NCBI GenBank assembly: GCA_024400505.1
Contig: JAKSMP010000014.1
Location: forward strand, 1-47,744
Direction of reading: 5' to 3'
Origin: Bacteroidales bacterium
Lineage (GTDB): Bacteria > Bacteroidota > Bacteroidia > Bacteroidales > P3
DNA: 47,744 nt
The stretch's first letter is position 1, and each line of letters begins with the position of its first letter. The position numbers and the translations under genes were made by a program. The notes below the pieces were generated by a model, which saw only the letters and a list, made by a program, of their open reading frames with translations, did not search any database and was not told where the DNA came from. Shown here one piece after another: positions 8,825 to 35,381 of the stretch.

Positions 8825-10138
8825 ATGAAATATATATCAGCACAAGAGGCGGTGAGCCACATACACGATGGCGACAATCTGCATTGGCCATGTGTGGCTG
8901 GTGCGCCAGAGCATCTGATTGAGGCGCTGGTGGCCAGGGCCGACAACGGCGAGTTGCACAATATCCACATCTCTCATCTCTACACCGAGGGCTATGCCGA
9001 CTATGTGCTACCCCAATACAGCGAAATTTTTCACCTCGACTCGTTCTTTGTGGGAGGCAATGTGCGCAAAGCCACCCACAGCAGGCAGGCCGACTATATC
9101 CCCTGTTCGCTCAGCGAGACTTCGCGCATGCTCCGCAGTGGAGCTGTGCCATGCGATGTGGTGTTGCTCACCGTCAGCCAGCCCGATGAGCAGGGCCGAG
9201 TGAGCCTGGGCATTGCCGTGGATTATATGCCAGCTGCCATGGAGCAGGCAAGGCTTATCATAGCCCAGGTGAACAAGTACATGCCTTTCACCTATGGCGA
9301 TGCGGTGATAGAGTTGCGGCAGCAAGGCACCATGGCGCGCTGCAAGAATGGCCGAGAAGTGCCCATCTTGCTGGTGCAGCACGATAAGGAGCTCATAGAC
9401 TCTGCCCCGATGCCCCTCACCGAGACCGACATTGCCATTGGACGGCATACCGCCCAGTTGATACCCGACGGAGCCACCCTGCAGATTGGCATTGGCAATA
9501 TTCCCACTGCCATCCTCTCGCAGTTGGGCGGCCACAAGGATTTGGGCGTGCACTCCGAGATGATATCGGATGATGTGATGCCCTTGGTGGAGCAGGGCGT
9601 GATCAATGGCCGATACAAGAAAACCGACCCGGGCAAGATGGCGGCCATGTTCCTGAAAGGGAGCCGCAAGCTCTACGACTTTGTGGATCGCAACCCGATG
9701 CTGCTCATGGATGAAGTGGGACGGACCAATTCACCTTTCGTCATTGCGCAGAATCCCAAGGTGATGGCGCTCAATTCTGCCATCGAGATTGACCTCACGG
9801 GGCAGGTGTGTGCCGACTCCATTGGCACAAGGATATTCAGCGGCAGCGGCGGACAGCTGGACTTTATGCTGGGAGCCACCTACAGCGAGGGCGGCAAACC
9901 CATCATTGCCATGAGTTCGCTCACCGGTCGAGGACAGAGCAAGATAGTGCCCACCCTCACCCCGGGCGCAGGCGTGGTCACCCCTCGCACCCTGGTGCAA
10001 TGGGTGGTGACCGAGCATGGGGCGGTGAACCTCTATGGCAAGTCCATCAAGGAGCGGGCTAGGTTGCTCATCGGCATTGCCGACCCCAGCTGCCAAGACG
10101 ACCTGCAGCGCCAAGCCAAAGAAAAAGGAATAATCTAA
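8825..10138 (+). CDS. Acetyl-CoA hydrolase/transferase family protein (4-hydroxybutyrate/butyrate CoA-transferase type)
   Basis: A 437-residue family I CoA transferase. Enzymes of this group move CoA between acetate and acids such as butyrate or 4-hydroxybutyrate, passing through a glutamyl-CoA thioester. The expected glutamate is Glu245 in GVHSEMISDD, preceded by the glycine-rich IGIGNIPTAI. The C-terminal domain shows DLTGQVCADSIGTRIFSGSGGQLDF and the family-typical LTPGAGVVTPR. It is full length. A clear paralog lies at 26012-27319, next to the Etf/acyl-CoA dehydrogenase operon, and the two share most motifs. The exact acid substrate cannot be read from the sequence. A thioredoxin-like gene follows after 16 bases. 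Confidence 0.92.
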   Translation: MKYISAQEAVSHIHDGDNLHWPCVAGAPEHLIEALVARADNGELHNIHISHLYTEGYADYVLPQYSEIFHLDSFFVGGNVRKATHSRQADYIPCSLSETSRMLRSGAVPCDVVLLTVSQPDEQGRVSLGIAVDYMPAAMEQARLIIAQVNKYMPFTYGDAVIELRQQGTMARCKNGREVPILLVQHDKELIDSAPMPLTETDIAIGRHTAQLIPDGATLQIGIGNIPTAILSQLGGHKDLGVHSEMISDDVMPLVEQGVINGRYKKTDPGKMAAMFLKGSRKLYDFVDRNPMLLMDEVGRTNSPFVIAQNPKVMALNSAIEIDLTGQVCADSIGTRIFSGSGGQLDFMLGATYSEGGKPIIAMSSLTGRGQSKIVPTLTPGAGVVTPRTLVQWVVTEHGAVNLYGKSIKERARLLIGIADPSCQDDLQRQAKEKGII

Positions 10139-14352: not shown

Positions 14353-15987
14353 GTGCGTCACGAATTTAACTCACTCACCAGCCTCTATACCTATGCCATC
14401 AAGAAATATGGCAAATGCATGGCTTCGGACTATGTGGATGGTGGACAACGATATACCTACGCTGAACTGGACGATGTGTGCCGTCGTGCATCAAAGCTTT
14501 TGGCCAACTTTGGCATTATGCCCTACGACAAGGTGGCCATCTTCTCGCAGAATATGCCCAACTGGACGGTGGCGTTTTTTGCCATCACCGCCTTTGGCCG
14601 TATTGCTGTGCCCATGCTCACCGAACTGACCGTGAATGAGATCCGAAATATCCTGATTCACTCCGACTCCAAAGCATTGTTTGTGTCTAAGAAATTGTTT
14701 ACAAAGGTGCCGATGGATATTGTTGACCGCATGTCGGTGGTGATATGTACGGATGACCTTTCGGTGTTGGCCAGCCGCGACGAGGACTATACCTGTGATG
14801 GCCAGCTGAGCAAGCCGCGCGAGGACGACACGGCAGCCATCATCTACACTTCGGGCACCACTGGCAATGCCAAGGGTGTGATGCTGAGCCATCGCAATCT
14901 TTGTGCCAATGTGTTGGCTGCTTGGCACGCCCAGCGTATCCACAAGAAAGATATTTTCCTTTCCATCCTTCCGATGGCCCATGCCTACGAATTGAGTATC
15001 GGCATGTTGTATCCTTTCTCTTGTGGCGCTTCGGTTTATTATATCCAGAAACCGCCAACGCCCACCGTGTTGATTAAAGCCCTCAAAGAGATTCGTCCCA
15101 CGTTGATGCTCTCCGTCCCCTTGGTGATTGAGAAAATCTATCGCAACAGTGTGTTGCCAACGGTGGAGAAGAGTGTGCTGCTCAGTTGGATGCGTCAATA
15201 TATTCCTTGGCTGCTCTACCTGATAGTGGGGTGGAAGGTGAAAAGCGTCTTCGGTGGCCGAATCAAATTCTTTGGCATCGGCGGTGCCAAGCTCGACCCT
15301 CAAGTGGAGGCTTTCTTGCACAAAGCTCATTTCCCCTACGCTATTGGCTACGGACTTACCGAGACCGCCCCACTGGTATGCGATGCTTCGCCCAGAAGGA
15401 CCAAGGTGGGCTCCACCGGCAAACCTTCCTACGGCGTGAAAGTGAAGTTGGAAAATGTGAATCCTGCCACGGGCGAGGGCGAATTGGTAGTGAAAGGCGA
15501 TTGCCTCATGCGCGGGTACTACAAAGATTATAGTCGCACCAAAGAGGTGATAACCGACGACGGCTGGTTCCACACGGGCGACCTGGCTATGTGCGACAAG
15601 CGTGGACGCTACTATATCAAGGGCCGTATGGGTAATATGATCCTTGGCGCCTCGGGCGAGAATATTTATCCCGAAGAGATTGAGTGCGTGATCAATAGTA
15701 TGGAGGGTATCAACGAATCGTTGGTGGTAGAGCGCAACGGACAGCTTGTGGCATTGGTGCACTACAACGACAATGTGCTCGACTGGAACTTTGAAAGCGA
15801 AGAAAAGTTCCTCAAGAATTTGGAAGAGCGCAAGCAAGCCGTCCTCGATTATGTCAACTCTCATGTCAACAAGAATTCGCATATCAAAGAGGTGAAGGTA
15901 CAGAAAGAACCTTTTATCAAGACTGCTACAAAGAAAATCAAGCGCTTCCGCTATAAAGATGGCGAAAACGCCGAAAACGAGAAATAA
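14353..15987 (+). CDS. AMP-dependent acyl-CoA synthetase (long-chain fatty acid ligase type)
   Basis: A 544-residue member of the ANL adenylating superfamily. It activates a carboxylic acid with ATP and CoA. The P-loop IIYTSGTTGNAKGVMLSH is near residue 165, followed by GYGLTETAPLV near 335, DDGWFHTGDLAM near 400, KGRMGNMILGASGENIYPEE near 420, and a C-terminal Lys in the expected TATKKIKRF segment. The frame opens with GTG at 14353, with no nearby ATG giving a complete N-terminus. It is followed after one base by a PlsC-like acyltransferase, suggesting that exogenous or recycled fatty acids are activated and then attached to a lipid. The free-acid substrate is not known. Confidence 0.93.
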   Translation: MRHEFNSLTSLYTYAIKKYGKCMASDYVDGGQRYTYAELDDVCRRASKLLANFGIMPYDKVAIFSQNMPNWTVAFFAITAFGRIAVPMLTELTVNEIRNILIHSDSKALFVSKKLFTKVPMDIVDRMSVVICTDDLSVLASRDEDYTCDGQLSKPREDDTAAIIYTSGTTGNAKGVMLSHRNLCANVLAAWHAQRIHKKDIFLSILPMAHAYELSIGMLYPFSCGASVYYIQKPPTPTVLIKALKEIRPTLMLSVPLVIEKIYRNSVLPTVEKSVLLSWMRQYIPWLLYLIVGWKVKSVFGGRIKFFGIGGAKLDPQVEAFLHKAHFPYAIGYGLTETAPLVCDASPRRTKVGSTGKPSYGVKVKLENVNPATGEGELVVKGDCLMRGYYKDYSRTKEVITDDGWFHTGDLAMCDKRGRYYIKGRMGNMILGASGENIYPEEIECVINSMEGINESLVVERNGQLVALVHYNDNVLDWNFESEEKFLKNLEERKQAVLDYVNSHVNKNSHIKEVKVQKEPFIKTATKKIKRFRYKDGENAENEK

Positions 15988-15988
15988 G

Positions 15989-16537
15989 ATGGAGAAATTT
16001 TGTGCGTGGTTGCTGCGCTTGCTAGGCTGGACTGTGGATAGTGGTCTGGCACCTGAAAAGAAATGTATCCTGCTGGGTGCTCCCCACACCAGCATTTGGG
16101 ATTTTGTGATAGCATACCTTTACTATCGCTCCAACGGCGGTCATGCCAAATGTATGGTAAAGAAAGAGTTGTTTGTGCCCGTGTTGGGCAGCATCATTCG
16201 TGCCATGGGTGGAATACCTGTGGATAGAAAAAATGCCACTACCATGCTCCGCAGCATAATTGCAGAGATGAACAACTCCGACTCTTTCCACTTGGCCATC
16301 GCACCCGAAGGCACCCGCAAACCCGTCAAAAAGTGGAAGACAGGTTTCCATACCATTGCCCGCAATGCCAACATACCTGTATATCTGGCTTATTTCGATT
16401 GGGGTACCAAACATGTGGGATTCACGCAGAAAGTGGAATTGACCGACGACCCCCATGCCGACATGGCTCGTATCCAAGCTCTCTATGAAGAGATGCACTT
16501 GGTGGGCAAACACCCAAAGAATTATGTGACAAAATAA
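15989..16537 (+). CDS. PlsC-like 1-acylglycerol-3-phosphate acyltransferase
   Basis: A 182-residue glycerophospholipid acyltransferase. The start is the ATG at 15989, one base after the stop of the ligase. The catalytic HX4D motif is APHTSIWDF (His33, Asp38), and the acceptor-binding APEGTRK follows near residue 113. An N-terminal amphipathic helix (MEKFCAWLLRLLGW) probably attaches it to the inner membrane face. It would transfer an acyl group to a lysophospholipid or glycerol phosphate. Short for PlsC (usually 230-250) but close to the YihG/short Bacteroidales type. The partner ligase upstream likely supplies the acyl-CoA. Confidence 0.88.
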   Translation: MEKFCAWLLRLLGWTVDSGLAPEKKCILLGAPHTSIWDFVIAYLYYRSNGGHAKCMVKKELFVPVLGSIIRAMGGIPVDRKNATTMLRSIIAEMNNSDSFHLAIAPEGTRKPVKKWKTGFHTIARNANIPVYLAYFDWGTKHVGFTQKVELTDDPHADMARIQALYEEMHLVGKHPKNYVTK

Positions 16538-17465: not shown

Positions 17466-18338
17466 TTAGCTGTTCACGGTGAAACAATGGGCCACACGAT
17501 CCACATAGCTTTTGGACACAGGTATAGGTTTGTCGCAGTTGGCCAGTTCCAATACTAGGTTTTCCTTGTCGCGCCGCAAGAGCTTCACATTGCTCAGATT
17601 CACCAGATAACTTCTGTGGCAACGCATCATACCCTGTTGGGCATAGGCTTCTTCAATCTGTTTCATCGAAGTGTGCAGGATGAAACAGTCGGGCTTGTCG
17701 CCGTTGATATAGTGGATGTTGGTGTAGTTGTCTGAGGCCTCCACATATAGCACGTTGGAACGCTTGGTGGCAAATGCTAGGCGCCCCCCCTTGTCGTAGA
17801 AGTTGATAGAATCGTCAATCAGCAGGGGGACTCCGCTTTGCGAATTCAACATGGCTTGCAGCGCTTCTATCTCCAGATTCTTCTCTTTAATAAGATATAT
17901 CAATATAGATATAATATAAGGGATAAAAAGAATGGCCACAATGTCCAGTGCCACACGCCATAAGATATGAGGGTAGGAGAGAGCGTCGTTGCCATTGATG
18001 AAATGGGCGATGGTGGTGATCACGAGGGTGAAAATACCAATCTCGGCAGCCAGCCAGATAACATACACCTTTAGTTCTAGTTGGTGTCGCCGCTGAACCC
18101 TATAAAGAATCATGCGCGAGAGGAACATGACCACCAATCCAGAGAACGATAAGATGACAGTGTAAAGTATGGGTCCGTAGTGGGTGAATCCCTTCGAAAC
18201 GGGGATGTATCCGACCGGTTTATACACCAGCACAAAAAGTATGATGAAGACTACAACTGATATGAAAAAATGAAAAATGCTCCGCTTTTCTGTGAGAAAA
18301 TGGGGTGCGTGAAGTTCTGTCTTTTGTAACAAATCCAT
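17466..18338 (-). CDS. Membrane-bound LytTR transcriptional regulator
   Basis: The start is set at the ATG at 18338 (MDLLQKTELHAPHF), 290 residues. Four hydrophobic spans (about residues 24-44, 57-80, 94-117 and 131-150) precede a short helix (IKEKNLEIEALQAML). A LytTR DNA-binding domain follows (about 190-288), with VLYVEASDNYTNIHY, LHTSMKQIEEAY, MMRCHRSYLVNLSNV and PIPVSKSYVDRV. These membrane LytTR proteins probably sense a membrane or metabolite signal and bind direct repeats. The gene diverges from the fab-etf operon at 18566, making that operon a likely target. TTTTTCGCC words at 18352-18360 and 18393-18401 could be binding sites. Confidence 0.88.
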   Translation of the reverse strand: MDLLQKTELHAPHFLTEKRSIFHFFISVVVFIILFVLVYKPVGYIPVSKGFTHYGPILYTVILSFSGLVVMFLSRMILYRVQRRHQLELKVYVIWLAAEIGIFTLVITTIAHFINGNDALSYPHILWRVALDIVAILFIPYIISILIYLIKEKNLEIEALQAMLNSQSGVPLLIDDSINFYDKGGRLAFATKRSNVLYVEASDNYTNIHYINGDKPDCFILHTSMKQIEEAYAQQGMMRCHRSYLVNLSNVKLLRRDKENLVLELANCDKPIPVSKSYVDRVAHCFTVNS

Positions 18339-18359
18339 TGTTAATTTTCTGTTTTTCGC

Positions 18360-18367
18360 CAAAAATA
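18360..18367 (-). promoter_or_regulatory. Promoter of the LytTR regulator
   Basis: TATTTTTG on the minus strand matches the -7 box. It lies about 20 bases ahead of the start codon, implying a very short leader, and within the 230-base divergent region shared with fabH. Confidence 0.5.
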
Positions 18368-18453
18368 GCCGTTTTTTACCCAAAATAACGACTTTTCGCC
18401 CACTTTATTATATAGTTTATCATAATTAATGTGAATACTTGAAAAAATGTTAG

Positions 18454-18461
18454 TTTCTTTG
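18454..18461 (+). promoter_or_regulatory. Possible promoter of the fab-etf operon
   Basis: TTTCTTTG, one base from the TAnnTTTG box, has TTGAAAAA ahead of it. It is the best candidate in the divergent region, 105 bases before fabH. A weak core would fit dependence on a regulator such as the adjacent LytTR protein. Confidence 0.35.
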
Positions 18462-18565: not shown

Positions 18566-19522
18566 ATGAAGATTATTGGAACAGGAAGTGCTCTGCCCAG
18601 CTTGGAAGTGACGAATGATATGCTGGCTGAGTTCCTTGACACTAATGACGAATGGATCAGTAGCCGCACTGGTATCAGATCCCGTCGTCTCCGCAGTACT
18701 GAAACTTTGGTTGATTTGGCAGTGAGTGCCTCTCGCTCGGCTCTTGAGTCGGCTGGCTTGAATCCCGAAGAAATAGATTTCTGCATCTGCTCTAATGTTG
18801 CCAACAATTATGTGACCCCTGCTATGAGCTGCATCATTCAGCAACATATCGGCAGCCATTGCCCTTGCTTTGATTTGAATGGTGCATGTGCAGGTTTCCT
18901 TGATGCCATGGAAGTGGCTGAAGCTTTGCTTAAGACCGACAGAGCCGAAAATATTTTGATTGTTTGCGCTGAAGAACCCTCTAGATTCTGCAACTGGGAA
19001 CGCCGTGAGACCAGTATCCTTTTCGCTGATGGTGCTGGTGCAGTGGTTGTGAGCAAGGGTGATGCCCTCAAGGCCATCCGTCTTACCACTGTCCCCAACC
19101 GCGATGTGATCGTTTACCAGCGTCGCCTGGAGACTACTCCCTTCGAGGTTCCTGGTGTTGATGTCACTGAGCCTTTGAAGATGAATGGTCGCGAAGTGTT
19201 CCGTATGGCTGTTGAAACTTCGCAGCGCGACCTTCATGCCATGATGGAAGAGACTGGCATCTCCGCTGACATGATTGACTACTATGTCCTGCATCAGGCC
19301 AACTTGCGTATCATTTCCTCCATCAGAGAACACCTCGGGCAGCCCGAATATAAGTTCCCCACCAACATCGAGCGCACCGGCAACATCTCCTCTGCTAGTA
19401 TTCCCATCTTGTTGGATGAGCTTTACAGCGCTGGACGCCTCAAGAAAGGCGATATGCTTGCTCTGAGCGCTTTTGGTGCTGGATTTGTGTCAGGCTCTGC
19501 AATCATTGAATGGACCAAATAA
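18566..19522 (+). CDS. fabH: 3-oxoacyl-ACP synthase III (KAS III)
   Basis: A 318-residue KAS III of normal length with the Cys-His-Asn triad at Cys108 (NGACAGF), His243 (LHQANLR) and Asn273 (TGNISSAS). The family condenses a CoA-bound primer such as acetyl-CoA with malonyl-ACP to start fatty-acid chains. It is the first gene of an operon that continues with KAS II, FabZ, FabG, EtfB, EtfA and an acyl-CoA dehydrogenase. No acyl carrier protein or malonyl transferase is encoded nearby. Its place in this operon makes a role in a dedicated short-chain pathway likely, though a backup role in normal lipid synthesis cannot be excluded. Confidence 0.95.
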   Translation: MKIIGTGSALPSLEVTNDMLAEFLDTNDEWISSRTGIRSRRLRSTETLVDLAVSASRSALESAGLNPEEIDFCICSNVANNYVTPAMSCIIQQHIGSHCPCFDLNGACAGFLDAMEVAEALLKTDRAENILIVCAEEPSRFCNWERRETSILFADGAGAVVVSKGDALKAIRLTTVPNRDVIVYQRRLETTPFEVPGVDVTEPLKMNGREVFRMAVETSQRDLHAMMEETGISADMIDYYVLHQANLRIISSIREHLGQPEYKFPTNIERTGNISSASIPILLDELYSAGRLKKGDMLALSAFGAGFVSGSAIIEWTK

Positions 19523-19604
19523 TTTAGCTCCTAATCAAATGTGTCTCCGCTTTTTGCGGTATGGCCAATTAAGTATTAATTGACAATTAAAGAAACAAAC
19601 AAAA

Positions 19605-20840
19605 ATGAAAAGAGTAGTAATCACCGGTATGGGTTGCGTCAACCCTCTTGGTAACGATATCAACACCCTTTGGGACAACTTGCTGAAAGGTAAGAATGCC
19701 ATCGATTTTATTTCATCCATCGACAACCCTGATCTGCCCGTTAAAGTGGCTGCTGAGGTAAAAGATTTTGACCCAATCGCCTTGGGTTTGGACAAAGCAA
19801 TGGTTCGTCGTAACGACCGTTATGCCCAGTTTGCTTTGGCTGCTGCCAAGCAGGCCATGGAAGATAGCGGCCTCGTTGTGGGTGAGCATGTTGAGCCCGA
19901 ACGCATTGGTACTGCCATCGGTAGCGGTATCGGCGGCATCCACACCTTCATCAAGGAGCAGACCAACATCCTCTCTGCAGGTGTTCGTCGTGTGAGCCCC
20001 CTTTTCATCCCCATGATGATTGCCAACATCGCTTCTGCCAATGTTGCCATCATGTGCAACTGCCAGGGTCCCAACCTCCCCATCGTCACCGCTTGTGCCA
20101 CCGGCACCCACTCCATCGGTGAGGCTTATCGCATGATCAAGGAAGGCTTGGCCGACGCTATGATCACTGGCGGCACCGAGGCTGCTATCACCGAGATCGC
20201 CATTGGCGGTTTTGCCAACAGCAAGGCGCTCTCCACTGCCGACGATCCCAATGCAGCATCCATCCCCTTCGACGCTCGTCGTCATGGTTTCGTGATGGGC
20301 GAAGGCTCTGGTATCATGGTGCTCGAAGACTACGACATTGCTGTGAAGCGTGGCGCTCACATCTATGCCGAGGTGGTTGGCTATGGCAACACCTGCGATG
20401 CTCACCACTACACCGCTCCTCGTCCCGATGGTAAGTGCGCTGCTCAGGCTCTCCGCCTGGCTCTGCAGGGCGCTGACTATAAGGGCGAAAAACTCTATAT
20501 CAACGCTCACGGTACCTCCACTCCCCTCAACGACAAGAGTGAGACCAGCGCCATCAAGCAGGCTTTGGGCGAAGAGATGGCTCGCAAGGCTGTGATCAGC
20601 TCCACAAAATCCATGATGGGCCACATGCTCGGCGCAGCTGGCGCTATCGAACTTGTGATTAGCGCACTCACCCTGAAACACGGCGCAGTGGCTCCCACCA
20701 TCAACTATCGTGAGGCCGACCCCGAGTGCGACCTGAACTATACCCCAAACACCGCTGTGGATTTCGCTGCCGAGGTGGCCATCTCCAACAGCTTCGGTTT
20801 CGGCGGTCAGAACGCTTGCGTTGCACTTAGGAAACTGTAA
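19605..20840 (+). CDS. fabF: 3-oxoacyl-ACP synthase II (KAS II)
   Basis: A 411-residue elongating condensing enzyme with the Cys-His-His triad Cys164 (VTACATGTHS), His302 (INAHGTSTP) and His340 (KSMMGHMLGA). It extends acyl-ACP with malonyl-ACP. The wording of several blocks (RRVSPLFIPMMIANIAS, TINYREADPECDLNYTPN) recalls clostridial FabF more than the FabF that sits beside acpP in Bacteroides; this comparison is from memory. It lies 82 bases after fabH and is followed by a 111-base gap with a large hairpin. Confidence 0.95.
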   Translation: MKRVVITGMGCVNPLGNDINTLWDNLLKGKNAIDFISSIDNPDLPVKVAAEVKDFDPIALGLDKAMVRRNDRYAQFALAAAKQAMEDSGLVVGEHVEPERIGTAIGSGIGGIHTFIKEQTNILSAGVRRVSPLFIPMMIANIASANVAIMCNCQGPNLPIVTACATGTHSIGEAYRMIKEGLADAMITGGTEAAITEIAIGGFANSKALSTADDPNAASIPFDARRHGFVMGEGSGIMVLEDYDIAVKRGAHIYAEVVGYGNTCDAHHYTAPRPDGKCAAQALRLALQGADYKGEKLYINAHGTSTPLNDKSETSAIKQALGEEMARKAVISSTKSMMGHMLGAAGAIELVISALTLKHGAVAPTINYREADPECDLNYTPNTAVDFAAEVAISNSFGFGGQNACVALRKL

Positions 20841-20852
20841 TTTAGTATTTTC

Positions 20853-20917
20853 GCAGCAGCCTTCCCTTGCTCAGTTATGGTGCCCCAATGCCATACTGAG
20901 GGTAGGGAAGGCCTCTG
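20853..20917 (+). repeat. Large hairpin between fabF and fabZ
   Basis: GCAG..GCCTTCCC..CTCAGT on the left pairs with CTGAG..GGGAAGGC..CTGC on the right, around a central ATGGTG / GCCAT stem. The structure spans 65 bases with few mismatches. No U-run follows, so it is not a simple terminator; it may be an RNA processing or stability element inside the operon. Confidence 0.65.
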
Positions 20918-20951
20918 CACAATAATATAACGAAAAAAAAATAATAGATAT

Positions 20952-21377
20952 ATGGTTATGAATAGAGAAGAAATTAAGACCTTCATGCCCCATCGTGAGC
21001 CAATGCTCATGGTTGATGATGTAGAGTTGCAAGGCGAAGTGGGTGTAGCCCACTATCATGTGACTGGTGATGAGTTTTTCCTTCAAGGTCACTATCCCGG
21101 ATACCCTGTAGTTCCCGGTGTTATCCTGTGTGAAATCATGGCGCAGTCCAGCTGCATCCTCCTCAGGGAAGCATTGGAGAATGCCACTCCTTTCTACAGC
21201 GGCATCGATGGCGCTCGTTTCAAACGTCAGGTACGCCCCGGCGACACAGTGGAAATCACCAGCAAGATTGTAGAGAGCCGTATGGGCACCTACATCGTTG
21301 AGTCCAAAGCCACCGTCGAAGGCCAACTTTGCGTAAGAGGCAAACTCATGTTCACCCTCGTGCCCAAGAACAAATAG
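20952..21377 (+). CDS. fabZ: 3-hydroxyacyl-ACP dehydratase (FabZ type)
   Basis: A 141-residue hotdog-fold dehydratase; an alternative start two codons in (20958) gives MNREEIKTF and is equally good. The active-site His47 lies in GHYPGYPVVPG and the catalytic Glu61 in ILCEIMAQ. DGARFKRQVRPGD near residue 75 is also typical. It removes water from 3-hydroxyacyl thioesters to give trans-2-enoyl thioesters, the position held by crotonase in standard butyrate operons. Stand-alone FabZ is notable because many Bacteroidales carry it fused to LpxC. Confidence 0.93.
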   Translation: MVMNREEIKTFMPHREPMLMVDDVELQGEVGVAHYHVTGDEFFLQGHYPGYPVVPGVILCEIMAQSSCILLREALENATPFYSGIDGARFKRQVRPGDTVEITSKIVESRMGTYIVESKATVEGQLCVRGKLMFTLVPKNK

Positions 21378-21415
21378 TATATTGAATCAATTATTAATAA
21401 TAATAAATAAGCACT

Positions 21416-22162
21416 ATGAAACTGTTAGAAAATAAAATTGCGCTCATCACTGGTGCATCCCGCGGTATTGGCCGTGCCACCGCATTGATGTTTGCTGAGA
21501 ATGGCGCTGATGTGATATTCACCGATTTCCGCGAAGACGAAAACAGCCAGTCCTTGGTAGAAGAAATCAAGGCAAAGGGTGTGCGTTGCACCTTCTTTGC
21601 TGCCGATGCTTCCAACCACGAACGCACCCTGGAGATTGCCAAAGCAGTTGAAGCAGAGTATGGCCGTTTGGACATCCTCATCAACAATGCTGGTATCACC
21701 CGCGACAATCTGCTCATGCGCATGAGCGAAGCCGACTGGGACCTCGTGATGAACTGCAACCTCAAGTCCGTCTTCAACTATTGCAAAGCTTTCACCCCCA
21801 TGATGCTGAAGAAGCGCAGCGGCTCTATCATCAACATCAGCTCCATCGTGGGCATCAACGGCAACGCTGGCCAGTGCAACTATAGCTCCACCAAGGCTGG
21901 TATCATCGGTTTCACCCGCTCTTTGGCCAAGGAGATTGGCTCCCGCAGCGTGCGTGTGAATGCTGTTGCTCCTGGTTTCATCGAGACCCCCATGACCAAG
22001 CAGCTTGGCGAGGCAGCCCTCAACGAGTGGCTCAAAGCCATCCCCATGCGTCGTCCTGGTCAGGCCGACGATATCGCTCGCACTTGCGTTTATCTCGCTT
22101 GCGACCTCTCCACTTACATCACTGGTCAGGTGCTCCGTTGCGACGGCGGTCTCTCCCTCTAA
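21416..22162 (+). CDS. fabG: 3-oxoacyl-ACP reductase (FabG type)
   Basis: A 248-residue short-chain dehydrogenase. The cofactor loop is TGASRGIG (12-19), and NNAGITRDN and the catalytic set Asn115, Ser143, Tyr156 (YSSTK) and Lys160 are present. It reduces 3-oxoacyl thioesters to 3-hydroxyacyl thioesters. Asp37 after the second strand (IFTDFRE) is the type of residue that favours NADH over NADPH in this superfamily; some Bacteroidales FabG proteins share it, so it is suggestive only. It follows fabZ by 38 bases and precedes etfB by 34. Confidence 0.94.
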   Translation: MKLLENKIALITGASRGIGRATALMFAENGADVIFTDFREDENSQSLVEEIKAKGVRCTFFAADASNHERTLEIAKAVEAEYGRLDILINNAGITRDNLLMRMSEADWDLVMNCNLKSVFNYCKAFTPMMLKKRSGSIINISSIVGINGNAGQCNYSSTKAGIIGFTRSLAKEIGSRSVRVNAVAPGFIETPMTKQLGEAALNEWLKAIPMRRPGQADDIARTCVYLACDLSTYITGQVLRCDGGLSL

Positions 22163-22196
22163 TTTCATGAATCAATAGTAATACCAATTAATTACC

Positions 22197-23000
22197 ATGT
22201 CAGGTTTGAAAATTGTTGTACTCGCTAAGCAAGTGCCCGACACTCACAATGTGGGCGCCAATGCTATGAATCCCGACGGCACCGTCAACCGTGCCGCTCT
22301 GCCCACTGTCTTCAACCCCGAAGACTTGAACGCACTGGAAATGGCTCTCCAGATCAAAGACCGTGTGCCCGGCACCCACATCACCGTGGTCACCATGGGT
22401 CTGCCCAAAGCCGCTGGCATCATCACCGACTCCATGAGCCGTGGTGCCGATGCTGGCTTTGTGCTGAGCGACCCCCGTCTGGGTGGCGCCGACACTTTGG
22501 CCACCTCCTACGCCCTCTCCAAGGCTGTTGAGATGGTTGGCAACGTCGATCTCATCATTGGTGGCCGCCAGGCAATCGATGGCGATACCGCTCAGGTAGG
22601 TCCCCAGGTGGCTGAGAAATTGGACATCCCCCAGGTCACCTATGCCGAGACCCTCGTGAATGTTGATGCCAAGAGCATTGAACTCACCCGTCGTTTGGCT
22701 GATGGTATCGAGCAGGTGCGTGTTAACATGCCCGCCGTCATCACCGTCACTGGCACCGCCAAGCCTTGCCGCTTCCCCCATGCCCATCGCCTCATCAAGC
22801 TCGACGGCATGACCGTGGAAACCCGCAATGCTGATGATATCAAACCCGATCTCGAACGTATCGGCAAGAAGGGCTCCCCCACCAAGGTGAAGAAAATCCA
22901 GAACGTAGTACTTGCTCACAAAGAAAGCCAGCAGGTGGCTCCCACCACCGAGGCTCTCAGCGAACTGATGGGTTCACTCATTGCAGAGCATATCATCTAA
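22197..23000 (+). CDS. etfB: Electron transfer flavoprotein, beta subunit
   Basis: A 267-residue EtfB. Family marks are VVLAKQVPDTHNVG at the N-terminus, the EtfB signature GGRQAIDGDTAQVGPQVAEKLDIPQ near residue 121 and the VITVTGTAKPCRFPHAHRLI block. With EtfA it carries electrons between NADH, ferredoxin or other carriers and acyl-CoA dehydrogenase. Whether the complex bifurcates electrons cannot be read safely by eye. A 103-base gap to etfA follows, containing two direct copies of AATTAACAATTAAG and a small GC hairpin. Confidence 0.96.
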   Translation: MSGLKIVVLAKQVPDTHNVGANAMNPDGTVNRAALPTVFNPEDLNALEMALQIKDRVPGTHITVVTMGLPKAAGIITDSMSRGADAGFVLSDPRLGGADTLATSYALSKAVEMVGNVDLIIGGRQAIDGDTAQVGPQVAEKLDIPQVTYAETLVNVDAKSIELTRRLADGIEQVRVNMPAVITVTGTAKPCRFPHAHRLIKLDGMTVETRNADDIKPDLERIGKKGSPTKVKKIQNVVLAHKESQQVAPTTEALSELMGSLIAEHII

Positions 23001-23103
23001 TGAATTAACAATTAAGAATTAACAATTAAGAGCGGTGCTTGCCCCGCTGCACCCACCATCCACACTCTTAAAACATTAAATCTTAAATCCTCAATAGACA
23101 ATT

Positions 23104-24126
23104 ATGAACAATGTATTAGTATATTGCGAACTGACAGAAAATAACCACATCGCAGATATCAGCCTCGAACTCTGCACCAAGGGTCGCCAGTTGGCCACCG
23201 AGATGAACGGTCGCCTCCAGGCAGTAGTGGCTGGCAGCAATATCAAAGAGGTGGCTGCCGAGCTTTATCCCTATGGCGTGGACGAAGTGTTCCTGGCCGA
23301 CGACGCTCGCCTGTCTCCCTATCGCACCCTGCCTCATTTCGAGGTGGTACTCAAGGTCATCAACGAGCAGCAGCCTGATGTAGTGCTCTTCGGCGCCACC
23401 ACCGTGGGCCGCGACTTGGCACCCCGCATCTCTTCACGTCTGCAGTGCGGCCTCACCGCCGACTGCACCGCGCTCGAACTGGGCGACCACACCGACACCC
23501 TCACTGGCAAAGAATACAAAGGCATCCTTCATCAGATCCGTCCCGCCTTCGGCGGCAACATCATTGCCACCATCATCACCCCCGAGAACAAGCCTCAGAT
23601 GGCCACCGTTCGTGAGGGTGTGATGCGCAAAGAGATTTTCGATGCCAATCACAAAGGTACCGTTGCCATGGTTGACGTTTCCGACAAGCTGCATGCTGCC
23701 GACAAGGCTGTCACCATCATCCGTCGCGAAATCGTAGAAAAGAGCATCAACATCAAGGGCGCTTCCATCGTTGTGGCAGGTGGCTATGGTATGGGTTCCA
23801 AAGAGAACTTCCAGCTCCTCCACGACCTTGCTCACCTCATCGGTGGCGAGGTAGGAGCCACCCGTGCTGCTGTTGACGCTGGCTTCTGCGAGCCCGAGCG
23901 CCAGATTGGTCAAACCGGTGTCACCGTGCGTCCTCGTCTCTACATCGCTTGCGGTATCAGCGGCGCTGTTCAACATCGTGCCGGTATGGAGGATTCTGCC
24001 AAGATCATCTCCATCAACACCGACCCCAACGCACCCATCAATGCCATTGCCGACTACACCATCATCGGCGATGCCTGCACCGTGCTGCCTATGATGATGG
24101 ATTGTTATTCCAATAATTTGAAGTAA
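23104..24126 (+). CDS. etfA: Electron transfer flavoprotein, alpha subunit
   Basis: A 340-residue EtfA of normal length. The FAD-binding C-terminal half shows VAGGYGMGSKENFQLLHDLA, GGEVGATRAAVDAGF, ERQIGQTGVTVRPRLYIACGISGAVQH and INTDPNAPINAIADYTIIGD, in the standard order. It pairs with EtfB upstream and with the acyl-CoA dehydrogenase one base downstream (stop 24126, next start 24128). The three together form the Bcd-Etf-like unit that reduces enoyl-CoA or oxidises acyl-CoA. Confidence 0.96.
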   Translation: MNNVLVYCELTENNHIADISLELCTKGRQLATEMNGRLQAVVAGSNIKEVAAELYPYGVDEVFLADDARLSPYRTLPHFEVVLKVINEQQPDVVLFGATTVGRDLAPRISSRLQCGLTADCTALELGDHTDTLTGKEYKGILHQIRPAFGGNIIATIITPENKPQMATVREGVMRKEIFDANHKGTVAMVDVSDKLHAADKAVTIIRREIVEKSINIKGASIVVAGGYGMGSKENFQLLHDLAHLIGGEVGATRAAVDAGFCEPERQIGQTGVTVRPRLYIACGISGAVQHRAGMEDSAKIISINTDPNAPINAIADYTIIGDACTVLPMMMDCYSNNLK

Positions 24127-24127
24127 T

Positions 24128-25714
24128 ATGAATTTTTATACCGACAACCCTAGTCTTTCTTTTTATCTTCATCATCCCGATATGGCTCAGGTCACCGAGG
24201 CTCGTGAGCAGGGATATAGCAAAACCGAAGAAGGCGGTCCCGCCGATAACGAGACTGCGCTGAGACAATACGAAATGGTCCTCAACCTCGTGGGCGAGGT
24301 GGCTGGCGAAGTAATCGCCCCCAATGCTGCCGAAGTTGACCATGTGGGTCCCCAGCTAGTTGACGGCCGTGTGGAGTATGCTCCCGGCACCCGCCAGAAT
24401 CTCGACGCCATCGTTCAGTCCGGTCTTTTCGGCCTCTCGCTCGAACGCCGTTTCAATGGTCTCAATATGCCTCGTGCAGCCATCGTCATGGCTGCCGAGA
24501 TGATTGCTCGCGCCGATGTGGGCTTTGCCACCATCTGGGGCTTGCAAGACTGCGCCGACACTATCCAAGAGTTTGCCGACGAAGAACTCAAGGTCAAATA
24601 CCTCCCCCGCATCTATGAGGGTGCCACCTGCTCCATGGACCTCACCGAGCCCGACGCAGGTTCCGACCTCCAGAGCGTCCGCCTCAAAGCCACTTGGGAC
24701 GAAGCCAACAACTGCTGGCGCCTCAATGGTGTGAAGCGTTTCATCACCAACGGCGATGCCGACATCCACCTCGTGCTTGCACGCTCCGAGGAGGGCACCA
24801 CCGATGGTCGCGGCCTCTCTTACTTCGTTTTCGACAAAGCCGATGGTGGTATGACCGTCCGTCGCATCGAGAACAAGATGGGTATCAAGGGATCCCCCAC
24901 CGCCGAACTCGTTTTCCGCAATGCTCCCGCACAGCTCGTGGGCCAGCGCAAACTCGGTCTCATCAAGTATGTGATGTCACTGATGAATGGCGCTCGCTTG
25001 GGCGTAGGTGCTCAGTCCATCGGCCTTTGCGAAGCTGCCCTTCGCGAAGCTGAGGTCTATGCTGCCAGCCGCGAACAGTTTGGCCATGCCATTGGTCAGT
25101 TCGTAGCTGTTCAGGATCTCATCAGCGCCATCCGCTCCCGCACCGAGGGCGCTCGCACCCTTATGTATGAGACCGCTCGTTGGGTCGATCTCTCTGCCTC
25201 ATCCAAGGCTGCTGCCCGCATCGCCGACATCCTCACTCCTCTGGTCAAGATGACTGCCAGTGAGTTTGCCAACAAGTGCGCCTACGACTGCATCCAGGTT
25301 CACGGCGGTTCCGGCTTCATGAAAGAATATCCTTGCGAACGCCTCTATCGTGATGCCCGCATCCTCACCATCTACGAAGGCACCAGCCAGCTGCAGGTAG
25401 TGGCTGCCATCAAGGGCATTGCCAACGGCGCCTACACCAAGCTCATTGCCGACTACGATGCCAAGGCTGCTCTTGTGGCCACCGAAGGCGAAATGGCTGA
25501 ATGCCTGGCCGCCCTCCGCGCTCGCAGCGCCGAATACGAGGCCCTCTATGCCAAGGCAACCGCCAACGGCACCACCGATCCTCTCTTCGACCACATGGCT
25601 CGCAAACTCACCGAGCACATCGCCACCACCGTTATGGGCTACCTCCTACTTCTCGACTCCGCTCGCGACGCACACTTCATGGGTTCCCTCAAGTGGTTCC
25701 TGGAACAGAACTAA
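24128..25714 (+). CDS. Acyl-CoA dehydrogenase with C-terminal extension
   Basis: A 528-residue flavoprotein, longer than the 380-residue classical Bcd by an N-terminal segment and a C-terminal helical extension of roughly 110 residues. The core carries CSMDLTEPDAGSDLQSVRL, FITNGDADIHLVLAR, KMGIKGSPTAELVF, ASREQFGHAIGQFVAVQ, the QVHGGSGFMKEYPCERLYRDARI block and the catalytic Glu in TIYEGTSQLQ. The same long form occurs beside etf genes in butyrate-forming Porphyromonas. In this operon it would complete the cycle by reducing enoyl thioesters through Etf, the step FabI or FabK performs in lipid synthesis. A strong terminator follows 21 bases after the stop. Confidence 0.94.
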   Translation: MNFYTDNPSLSFYLHHPDMAQVTEAREQGYSKTEEGGPADNETALRQYEMVLNLVGEVAGEVIAPNAAEVDHVGPQLVDGRVEYAPGTRQNLDAIVQSGLFGLSLERRFNGLNMPRAAIVMAAEMIARADVGFATIWGLQDCADTIQEFADEELKVKYLPRIYEGATCSMDLTEPDAGSDLQSVRLKATWDEANNCWRLNGVKRFITNGDADIHLVLARSEEGTTDGRGLSYFVFDKADGGMTVRRIENKMGIKGSPTAELVFRNAPAQLVGQRKLGLIKYVMSLMNGARLGVGAQSIGLCEAALREAEVYAASREQFGHAIGQFVAVQDLISAIRSRTEGARTLMYETARWVDLSASSKAAARIADILTPLVKMTASEFANKCAYDCIQVHGGSGFMKEYPCERLYRDARILTIYEGTSQLQVVAAIKGIANGAYTKLIADYDAKAALVATEGEMAECLAALRARSAEYEALYAKATANGTTDPLFDHMARKLTEHIATTVMGYLLLLDSARDAHFMGSLKWFLEQN

Positions 25715-25735: not shown

Positions 25736-25773
25736 CAGGGCGAGAACCAGAATGGTTCTCGCCCTGTTTTTTT
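25736..25773 (+). terminator. Rho-independent terminator of the fab-etf-acd operon
   Basis: A 13-bp hairpin (CAGGGCGAGAACC, loop AGAAT, GGTTCTCGCCCTG) is followed by seven Ts. It separates the operon from the second CoA transferase. Confidence 0.93.
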
Positions 25774-26011: not shown

Positions 26012-27319
26012 ATGAAACCTATTAAATTTGTGTCGGCTGACGAGGCCGTAAAGGTTGTCAAGAGTGGCGACCACATCCATTTCAGCAGTGTTTCCGCTTA
26101 TCCCGTCATCTTGGGTGAAGCTTTGGCCCGCCGTGGCGACAGCGGCGAACTCAAAGACGTTCGCATCCACCACCTCCACACCGAGGGCTATGCCCCCTAC
26201 ACCCAGGAGAAATACAATGGTGTATTCTTCGCTCAGGGCTTCTTCGTGGGTGGCAATGTCCGCAAAGACACCCAGGCAGGTTGGGCCGACTATATCCCCA
26301 TCTTCCTCCGCGAGACCCAGAAACTCTATCGCGAGGGCGTTCTCCCCTGCGATGTGGCCATGATTCAGGTCTCCCCCGTCGATAAGCACGGCTATGTCTC
26401 CCTCGGCACCTCCGTCGATGCCACCTTGGCTGCCATCGAGTGCGCCAAGACCGTCATCGCCGTCATGAACCCCAACGTGCCTCGCGCATGGGGCAATGCC
26501 AACATCCCTGCCGACATGGTTGACATCTGGGTTGAGGACGACACCCCCCTCACTCCCGCAAAACCCGCCGCTCCCTCCGAGACCGATATGCTCATTGGTG
26601 AGCACGTGGCTGCCTTGGTTGAAGATGGCGCTTGCCTCCAGATGGGTATTGGTGCTATCCCCAATGCTGTGCTTGCCAAGATTGGCGACCACAAGAATTT
26701 GGGTGTCCACACCGAGATGTTCTCCGATGGTCTGCTCCCCCTCATCGAGAGTGGCGCCGTCAACGGCATGAACAAGAAATATCGTCGTGGCCGTATCGTT
26801 TCCACCTTCCTCATGGGCTCCAAAGAACTCTACGACTTCATCGACGACAACCCCGCTGTTTATATGACCGATGTAAAATACTCCAACGATCCCCAAATCA
26901 TTGGTATGAACCCCAAAGTCACCGCCATCAACTCTGCCCTGCAGGTTGACCTCACCGGCCAGGTGTGCGCCGACTCCATCGGCACCAAGTTCTACAGCGG
27001 TGTAGGCGGCCAGATCGACTTTGTGGACGGAGCCAACCTCTCCGAAGGTGGTAAGGCCATTATCGCCATGCCCTCCATCACCGCCAAGGGTGTCAGCAAG
27101 ATTGCTCCCATTCTCACCCCCGGTGCTGGCGTAGTCACCACCCGCAACCACATCCACTGGCTTGTTACCGAAAATGGTGCTGTTGACCTCTATGGCAAGA
27201 GCCTCCAGGAGCGTGCCAAACTCATCATCAGCATTGCTCACCCCAGCGCACAAGAGGAATTGGATCGTGCTGCATTCGAGCGTTTCGGTCCCCACTATCT
27301 CTCTGTCAACATCAAATAG
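26012..27319 (+). CDS. Acetyl-CoA hydrolase/transferase family protein (butyrate/4-hydroxybutyrate CoA-transferase type), second copy
   Basis: The start is the ATG at 26012 (MKPIKFVSADEAVKVVKSGD); an in-frame TTG at 25973 only adds a translated leader. The 435-residue protein has the expected thioester-forming Glu235 in GVHTEMFSDG, the glycine-rich MGIGAIPNAV before it, and DLTGQVCADSIGTKFYSGVGGQIDF in the C-terminal half. It is a clear paralog of the protein at 8825-10138. Placed just after Etf and acyl-CoA dehydrogenase it most likely transfers CoA from the finished acyl-CoA to acetate, releasing an acid such as butyrate. Substrate choice is inferred from position. Confidence 0.93.
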   Translation: MKPIKFVSADEAVKVVKSGDHIHFSSVSAYPVILGEALARRGDSGELKDVRIHHLHTEGYAPYTQEKYNGVFFAQGFFVGGNVRKDTQAGWADYIPIFLRETQKLYREGVLPCDVAMIQVSPVDKHGYVSLGTSVDATLAAIECAKTVIAVMNPNVPRAWGNANIPADMVDIWVEDDTPLTPAKPAAPSETDMLIGEHVAALVEDGACLQMGIGAIPNAVLAKIGDHKNLGVHTEMFSDGLLPLIESGAVNGMNKKYRRGRIVSTFLMGSKELYDFIDDNPAVYMTDVKYSNDPQIIGMNPKVTAINSALQVDLTGQVCADSIGTKFYSGVGGQIDFVDGANLSEGGKAIIAMPSITAKGVSKIAPILTPGAGVVTTRNHIHWLVTENGAVDLYGKSLQERAKLIISIAHPSAQEELDRAAFERFGPHYLSVNIK

Positions 27320-34550: not shown

Positions 34551-35381
34551 TTATCTCTTCTTGAGACCGAGGATTTCACGAGCTTCGTCGCTGGTGGCGA
34601 TGGGGCGGCCGAGGAGTTTGGCCATGCGCACTACCTTGTCAACGAGTTCGCCGTTGCTCTTGGCAAGCACGCCGCGCTCGAGATAAAGGTTGTCTTCGAA
34701 ACCTACGCGCACATTGCCGCCCATGGCGATGGCAGGAGCTGCCAGGGTGAAAGCATGGCGGCCGATGCCGGTGGCGGTCCAAGTGGAGCCAGCAGGGATG
34801 TTGCGAACAAGCCAGCAGAGGTTGTCAACGGTGGCGGGGGTGCAGCCGGGTACGCCAAGCACAAAGTTGAACTGCATGGGAGCAGCAGGAACTTCGCCTT
34901 TGCGGGCCATGGTGAGGATGGTGTCGAGGTGACCCATCTCAAAGCACTCGTATTCGGGCTTGATGCCGCGCTCCATCATGCGCTTGCCAAAAGCACGCAT
35001 GGTGGGCATGGTGTTGTCGAAAATTTCATCGCCGAAATTGCAGGTGCCGCAGTCGAGAGTGGCCATTTCGGGGAGGGGAGTGGTGTCGGTGCTCTGGAGA
35101 CGCTCATCGGGGGTCATGCCTACTGCGCCGCCGGTGGAAGGAATAAGAATCACGTTGGGGCAAGCTTTGTAGATGGCCTCTTCGCACTCCTGGAAACGGT
35201 CGCGGCTCTGGGTGGGGGTGCCGTCATCGTGGCGGACGTGGAGGTGAACGATGGCTGCACCAGCATCAACAGCTGATTTAGCTTCTCTTACAATTTCTTC
35301 TACGGTATAAGGAACAGCAGGATTCTGCTCTTTGGTGACTTCTGCGCCACAGATGGCAGCGGTGATAATGAGTTTATCCAT
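34551..35381 (-). CDS. kce: 3-keto-5-aminohexanoate cleavage enzyme (BKACE family)
   Basis: A 276-residue TIM-barrel enzyme that, in lysine fermentation, condenses 3-keto-5-aminohexanoate with acetyl-CoA to give acetoacetate and 3-aminobutyryl-CoA. The zinc ligands His46 and His48 lie in IVHLHVRHDDG and the third ligand Glu229 in VRVGFEDN, the positions seen in characterised Kce. IPSTGGAVGMT, the ECFEMGH segment and FVLGVPGC are further family marks. The BKACE family is diverse, so another beta-keto acid could be the substrate, but the close positional match favours Kce. No kamA, kamDE, kdd or kal gene is present; the gene stands alone with its own promoter, divergent from ruvC. Confidence 0.9.
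   Translation of the reverse strand: MDKLIITAAICGAEVTKEQNPAVPYTVEEIVREAKSAVDAGAAIVHLHVRHDDGTPTQSRDRFQECEEAIYKACPNVILIPSTGGAVGMTPDERLQSTDTTPLPEMATLDCGTCNFGDEIFDNTMPTMRAFGKRMMERGIKPEYECFEMGHLDTILTMARKGEVPAAPMQFNFVLGVPGCTPATVDNLCWLVRNIPAGSTWTATGIGRHAFTLAAPAIAMGGNVRVGFEDNLYLERGVLAKSNGELVDKVVRMAKLLGRPIATSDEAREILGLKKR

Follow-up and report, generated by a model that had tools for sequence, protein, structure and literature searches.

Why should genes for an electron-transferring flavoprotein (Etf) and an acyl-CoA dehydrogenase (Acd) stand in one operon with genes of fatty acid synthesis? The question is raised by a 47,744 nucleotide stretch of DNA from a Bacteroidales bacterium (contig JAKSMP010000014.1, assembly GCA_024400505.1), referred to here as the window, which is one whole contig of a metagenome-assembled genome of 2.09 Mb and 73.5 % completeness. 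Named relatives of this genome are rumen and gut assemblies designated 'Bacteroidales bacterium'. Seven intact forward-strand open reading frames (ORFs) at 18566–25714 encode FabH, FabF, FabZ, FabG, EtfB, EtfA and Acd. Our preferred reading, to which we give a probability of about 0.78, is that the operon represents the elongation module of an ordinary type II fatty acid synthase (FAS II), in which Acd and EtfAB would replace FabI, FabK or FabV as the enoyl-acyl carrier protein (ACP) reductase. Cells cannot do without the reduction of enoyl-ACP, and it is here that triclosan, isoniazid and inhibitors of FabI or FabK act.

In the proposed scheme, FabH would start the chain from acyl-CoA and malonyl-ACP and FabF would extend it, after which FabG would reduce and FabZ dehydrate the extended chain. 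Acd, receiving electrons from EtfAB, would then reduce trans-2-enoyl-ACP to acyl-ACP; both this enoyl-ACP activity and its direction are what we infer from sequence and gene context. The features of the locus are as follows.

17466–18383, reverse strand: LytTR-type regulator (PF04397) with hydrophobic N-terminal stretches, divergent from the operon
18566–19522, forward strand: FabH, 3-ketoacyl-ACP synthase III (NF006829 above cut-off)
19605–20840, forward strand: FabF, 3-ketoacyl-ACP synthase II (TIGR03150 above cut-off)
20952–21377, forward strand: FabZ, 3-hydroxyacyl-ACP dehydratase (NF000582 above cut-off)
21416–22162, forward strand: FabG, 3-ketoacyl-ACP reductase (TIGR01830 above cut-off)
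22197–23000, forward strand: EtfB of bifurcating type (nearest to solved chains of bifurcating Etfs; diagnostic Gly in AIDGDTAQVGP)
23104–24126, forward strand: EtfA (PF01012, PF00766; Arg matching C. difficile R136)
24128–25714, forward strand: long Acd with a C-terminal extension, the proposed enoyl-ACP reductase (Pfam acyl-CoA dehydrogenase domains, PF12186)
25736–25766, forward strand: intrinsic terminator, with a stem of 14 base pairs and then seven T

The seven-gene rightward run described in the initial annotation was borne out by the ORF coordinates and family assignments, as were its gaps of 1–111 bases (82, 111, 38, 34, 103 and 1, in order from FabH to Acd) and its single strong terminator. 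Every catalytic residue checked was present, again in line with that annotation. In alignments of relatives, some of whose contigs are included twice, the Cys-His-Asn of FabH was intact in 60/60 rows, the Cys-His-His of FabF in 58/58, the His-Glu of FabZ in 55/55 and the Asn-Ser-Tyr-Lys of FabG in 56/56; the catalytic base Glu of Acd is found within YEGT. FabH scored 279.9 bits against the TIGR00747 fabH model, under its 292.1 cut-off, and EtfB and EtfA exceeded the Pfam ETF cut-offs while no NCBIfam Etf model reached its own. One regular expression detected no ACP-like motif in the window, which agrees with the earlier remark that the locus lacks an ACP gene. Family models run on the operon's proteins found neither crotonase nor 3-hydroxyacyl-CoA dehydrogenase (no genome-wide search for these was made). 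The Bacteroidales promoter motif TAnnTTTG was not found upstream of FabH, where there is one near match at 18454.

Known enoyl-ACP reductases are not recognised in the genus

Since an incomplete genome cannot prove the absence of a gene, we searched 114 further genomes of at least 90 % completeness. Together with the window genome these make up a set of 115 from one family, 67 of which, including the window's, belong to its genus. The best score against the FabK model (TIGR03151) was below 30 bits in all 67 genus genomes, with positives at 278–320 bits in 21/115 family genomes, all in other genera. Recognisable FabI was likewise absent from the 67, the best matches reaching 64 bits (tblastn with E. 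coli FabI) and 96 bits (FabI model); at the loci read, these weaker matches display the YxxxK of other short-chain dehydrogenases/reductases (SDRs). A FabI-type gene would have been seen, because the same search detected FabI with its YX6K motif at 121 bits in G113, a genome of another genus. FabV (PF12241) was found in none of the genus genomes and above cut-off in 0/115, with below-cut-off matches in three genomes outside the genus.

FabH and long Acd co-occur in 62 genus genomes. In the 32 of these that carry the window type of Acd, FabH lies within 8 kb in 30 and on a different contig in two. Acd-EtfAB is the sole predicted enoyl-thioester reductase standing with the fatty acid genes, and the earlier suggestion that an Etf-linked flavoprotein replaces the usual enoyl-ACP reductase is strengthened by the failure to find FabK, recognisable FabI or FabV.

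The operon looks like core fatty acid synthesis

Matches to the FabH family PF08541 numbered exactly one in 51/67 genus genomes, two or three in 12 and none in four. With a sole FabH in those 51 genomes, the module must therefore also serve membrane lipids. Two FabF matches per genome are usual (47/67), and ACP adjoins FabF in 28 of the 30 best-scoring FabF loci, one of the 30 being the cluster copy. The possibility raised at the outset, that these genes are simply the housekeeping set, therefore stands for FabH and fails for FabF, a second copy of which adjoins acpP. The FabI-model search at 1e-15 returned one SDR match in 42/67 genus genomes, two in 11 and none in 14; this single match is a gene other than the cluster FabG in G026 and G061 at least. 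The window's own genome also has a separate accessory cluster (L265, G000:C1, 8370–13751), in which one FabH-like gene stands with genes for two SDRs resembling FabG.

Residues that we take to be ACP-docking positions in E. coli (FabH R249 and K256/K257, FabG R129/R172, FabF R69/K66) were retained in part. The R249 position of FabH was kept in 60/60 rows, FabG position 129 was R or K and its R172 position kept in 56/56, and the R69 position of FabF was kept in 58/58. The evidence leans towards ACP rather than CoA as the probable acyl carrier of the Fab steps, and the operon seems to belong to the core of type II fatty acid synthesis rather than to an additional route to short-chain acids.

Thiolase (PF02803) was detected in 0/67 genus genomes and in 16/115 across the family. 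The proposed check on whether relatives carrying the cluster lack thiolase was thereby answered affirmatively, and thiolase-based butyrate production in the genus was rejected.

The gene set recurs in several arrangements across Bacteroidales

After repeats of the same Acd were dropped, the map comprised 111 distinct Bacteroidales loci that carry a long Acd, and FabH and FabF were present in the same stretch in 53 of these. A gene set that recurs in 53 distinct loci is more than chance, and the claimed coupling of Fab enzymes to Etf and Acd gains accordingly. The search for the window's gene order in other Bacteroidales was successful in 37/53 linked loci, some of which include FabD, split ORFs or unrecognised FabZ or FabG, and two of which have further ORFs separating the Fab part from the Etf part. 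FabG is shifted to the cluster end in 10/53, EtfBA-Acd is placed first in one (L097), and the Fab and Etf parts both lie inside one 19 kb stretch in three. The remaining two (L096, L130) display the order ACP-FabF-FabH-EtfB-EtfA-Acd, with an ACP bearing the DSL motif at the head. FabD is located between FabG and EtfB in eight genomes (G007, G026, G039, G041, G042, G045, G055 and G068; among the mapped loci, L092 and L093 are of this kind), directly after Acd in G093 (EtfB-EtfA-Acd-FabD) and approximately 3 kb after Acd in G089 and G096.

In a 117-row Acd tree, linkage to FAS as a label requires 10 changes, and the Acd of the linked group L100 (G005) shares only about half of its residues with that of the window. 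Because the association repeats in different arrangements and across diverged Acd lineages, a functional link between the Fab and Etf/Acd genes is indicated. Some members of the genus have another EtfBA-Acd, approximately half identical, which in G005 is joined to the Fab genes and is more loosely placed elsewhere (L062–L065, L101); this second type is apparently a replacement of the putative reductase.

A divergent LytTR relative stands directly before FabH in 44/53 distinct linked loci. The LytTR gene of the window is a candidate regulator of fatty acid synthesis.

EtfAB resembles bifurcating Etfs

Compared with solved chains, the window EtfB scored 136–174 bits against bifurcating Etfs and at most 65 bits against canonical ones, and its closest solved relatives are all bifurcating or confurcating. 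The glycine at A. fermentans position 123 is given as invariant in bifurcating EtfB in PMC12630350. This diagnostic Gly is present in the window and, by pattern, in 55/57 linked EtfB sequences; one of the two misses has the Gly by eye and the other has no motif. EtfA is closest to the solved proteins of C. difficile (5ol2) and CarE (6fah), and the Arg matching C. difficile R136, which adjoins the second flavin according to PMC5691135, was kept in 57/57 linked loci.

As EtfB has the bifurcation-diagnostic Gly, chain elongation may also reduce ferredoxin. We likewise infer NADH to be the likely electron donor on the grounds that EtfAB is of the bifurcating type; if bifurcation and its coupling are real, enoyl-ACP and NADH would yield acyl-ACP with parallel reduction of ferredoxin. 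At slightly below even odds, we tentatively propose that the core enoyl-ACP reductase of many gut Bacteroidales, a large group, belongs to a new Etf-dependent, electron-bifurcating class, whereby NADH would saturate the chain and generate reduced ferredoxin in each round, so that cells would conserve energy while building their membranes. The alternative that best survives accepts the enoyl-ACP reductase and holds that EtfAB is non-bifurcating in practice, simply passing electrons to Acd from NADH or another dehydrogenase. The Gly of EtfB means that FAD can fit, not that coupling occurs, and to that extent the alternative is reasonable; the uniformly bifurcating or confurcating relatives of EtfB and the conserved Arg that EtfA has close to the second flavin make it rather unlikely.

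The 528 amino acid Acd carries the PF12186 C-terminal extension. Its predicted model (pLDDT 85.5) is closest among solved folds to FadE2 and FadE1 of P. aeruginosa, which are long-chain acyl-CoA dehydrogenases, with TM scores of approximately 0.8. This predicted FadE-like fold fits a substrate range covering chains of many lengths.

Genomes that do not fit and alternative explanations

Several observations weigh against Acd-EtfAB as the enoyl-ACP reductase of core synthesis. Five genus genomes (G004, G010, G012, G049 and G062) are without long Acd and without a good FabH; FabD is kept in four and a high-scoring housekeeping-type FabF in all five, with acpP-fabF read in two. No replacement reductase was recognised in these five, for some of which we read the genes around FabD, acpP-fabF and the accessory ketosynthase clusters, most of them without annotation, and compared them with a reference gene set. 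In the 30 genomes with the second Acd type (about 52 % identical), Acd lies within 8 kb of FabH in seven, at 8–17 kb in nine, further away in two and on another contig in 12. Many Bacteroidales have EtfBA-Acd with no adjoining FAS gene. Two genomes of other genera (G108 and G114) have FabH and no long Acd, FabK or FabI that we could find. Outside the family, FabK was present in 2/11 linked and 14/39 unlinked genomes, a weak association with FabK loss in a sample that, judging by identical match coordinates, seems to share some assemblies with the family set. The FabF K66 and FabH K256/K257 positions were not kept, and the FabV model matched none of 14 control genomes.

The joint loss of FabH and long Acd in the five cluster-less genomes fits the two belonging to one module. 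Another genome of a different genus (G094) lacks long Acd and has weak FabH and FabK-like matches only, and a further six unlinked genomes outside the family reached just 132–138 bits with the FabK model.

These exceptions bear on a second alternative, namely that Acd-EtfAB oxidises acyl-ACP or acyl-CoA in desaturation or breakdown and that the enoyl-ACP reductase belongs to some other unknown or highly diverged family. Such a role has precedents in carrier-protein dehydrogenases of the acyl-CoA dehydrogenase (ACAD) fold, such as prolyl-ACP dehydrogenase (4irn) and the proteins behind the MbtN, RedW and PigA models, and would suit both the wide occurrence of long Acd-EtfBA apart from FAS genes and the five genomes that keep FabD, ACP and FabF with no reductase found. 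However, a breakdown gene is hardly expected in a synthesis operon, let alone in several arrangements of one, the lack of thiolase throughout the genus runs contrary to breakdown, and EtfB has the Gly of Etfs that feed reductions. We consider this alternative improbable.

The initial annotation had suggested a separate, malonyl-driven decarboxylative pathway that would dispose of electrons by making short- or medium-chain acids on either CoA or ACP. This pathway, ended by a nearby CoA-transferase, is very improbable and was rejected as the principal explanation: CoA-transferase-like genes do lie just downstream (26012–27319) and at 8825–10138, one close relative (L084/L105, same contig) has a CoA-transferase three genes downstream, and crotonyl-CoA is usually reduced by an Acd-Etf pair, but FabH is mostly the sole copy and hence has a membrane-lipid role, the clusters of relatives take in FabD or ACP, Acd belongs to the long-chain type and is closest to long-chain folds, and the CoA-transferase sits beyond the terminator and adjoins the operon in few relatives.

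Other features of the window

The genes at 8825–10138 and 26012–27319 belong to the acetyl-CoA hydrolase/transferase family, the latter being most like butyryl-CoA:acetate CoA-transferase, below cut-off. Just upstream of the operon region, at 14353–16537, an acyl-CoA synthetase-like gene overlaps a PlsC-like acyltransferase gene; this pair is not beside the cluster in mapped relatives. The window also contains a beta-keto acid cleavage enzyme gene (BKACE, PF05853) at 34554–35381 on the reverse strand, and a CRISPR-like array at 1391–2333, in which a conserved repeat, about 37 bases long, occurs 14 times at a spacing of 66–73 bases.

Significance and comparison with known systems

If the proposed role of Acd-EtfAB is correct, this genus, in which the known reductases were not recognised, would add an enoyl-ACP reductase class with a different fold, donor and mechanism. 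This would predict that gut bacteria of this kind are spared by FabI/FabK-type inhibitors, and would raise the question whether anaerobes can link the making of lipids to energy conservation through ferredoxin. The long Acd-EtfBA genes that are widespread but unexplained in Bacteroidales would also gain a possible role. Each part of the system is known. For the parts combined into an Etf-dependent enoyl-ACP reductase, a search of open-licence PubMed Central articles (subscription papers and preprints being outside its scope) returned no paper. The terms acyl-CoA dehydrogenase, electron transfer, Etf and Bacteroid are all absent from the available text of a 2022 review of enoyl reductases (PMC9260719).

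The operon resembles FAS II systems of the FabI, FabK, FabV and FabL types in the intact active sites of FabH, FabF, FabZ and FabG, in those ACP-docking residues that are retained, and in the FabD or ACP genes found in the clusters of relatives, whilst it differs from them in including acyl-CoA dehydrogenase and EtfAB in the operon and in the lack of detectable FabI, FabK or FabV in the genus. EtfB and EtfA are closest in sequence to the bifurcating butyryl-CoA dehydrogenase (Bcd)-EtfAB complexes of C. difficile (5ol2) and A. fermentans (4kpu/4l1f) and to caffeyl-CoA reductase-Etf (6fah), with the Gly and Arg kept. Unlike Bcd, which has approximately 380 amino acids, the 528 amino acid Acd is FadE-like with a C-terminal extension, and its gene partners are those of FAS II rather than thiolase, hydroxyacyl-CoA dehydrogenase and crotonase. 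A third likeness is to the ACAD-fold ACP dehydrogenases (4irn, and the MbtN, RedW and PigA models among the weaker matches), which act on a carrier-protein thioester. Those enzymes oxidise their substrates in secondary metabolism, whereas the role proposed for Acd-EtfAB is a reduction in core lipid synthesis.

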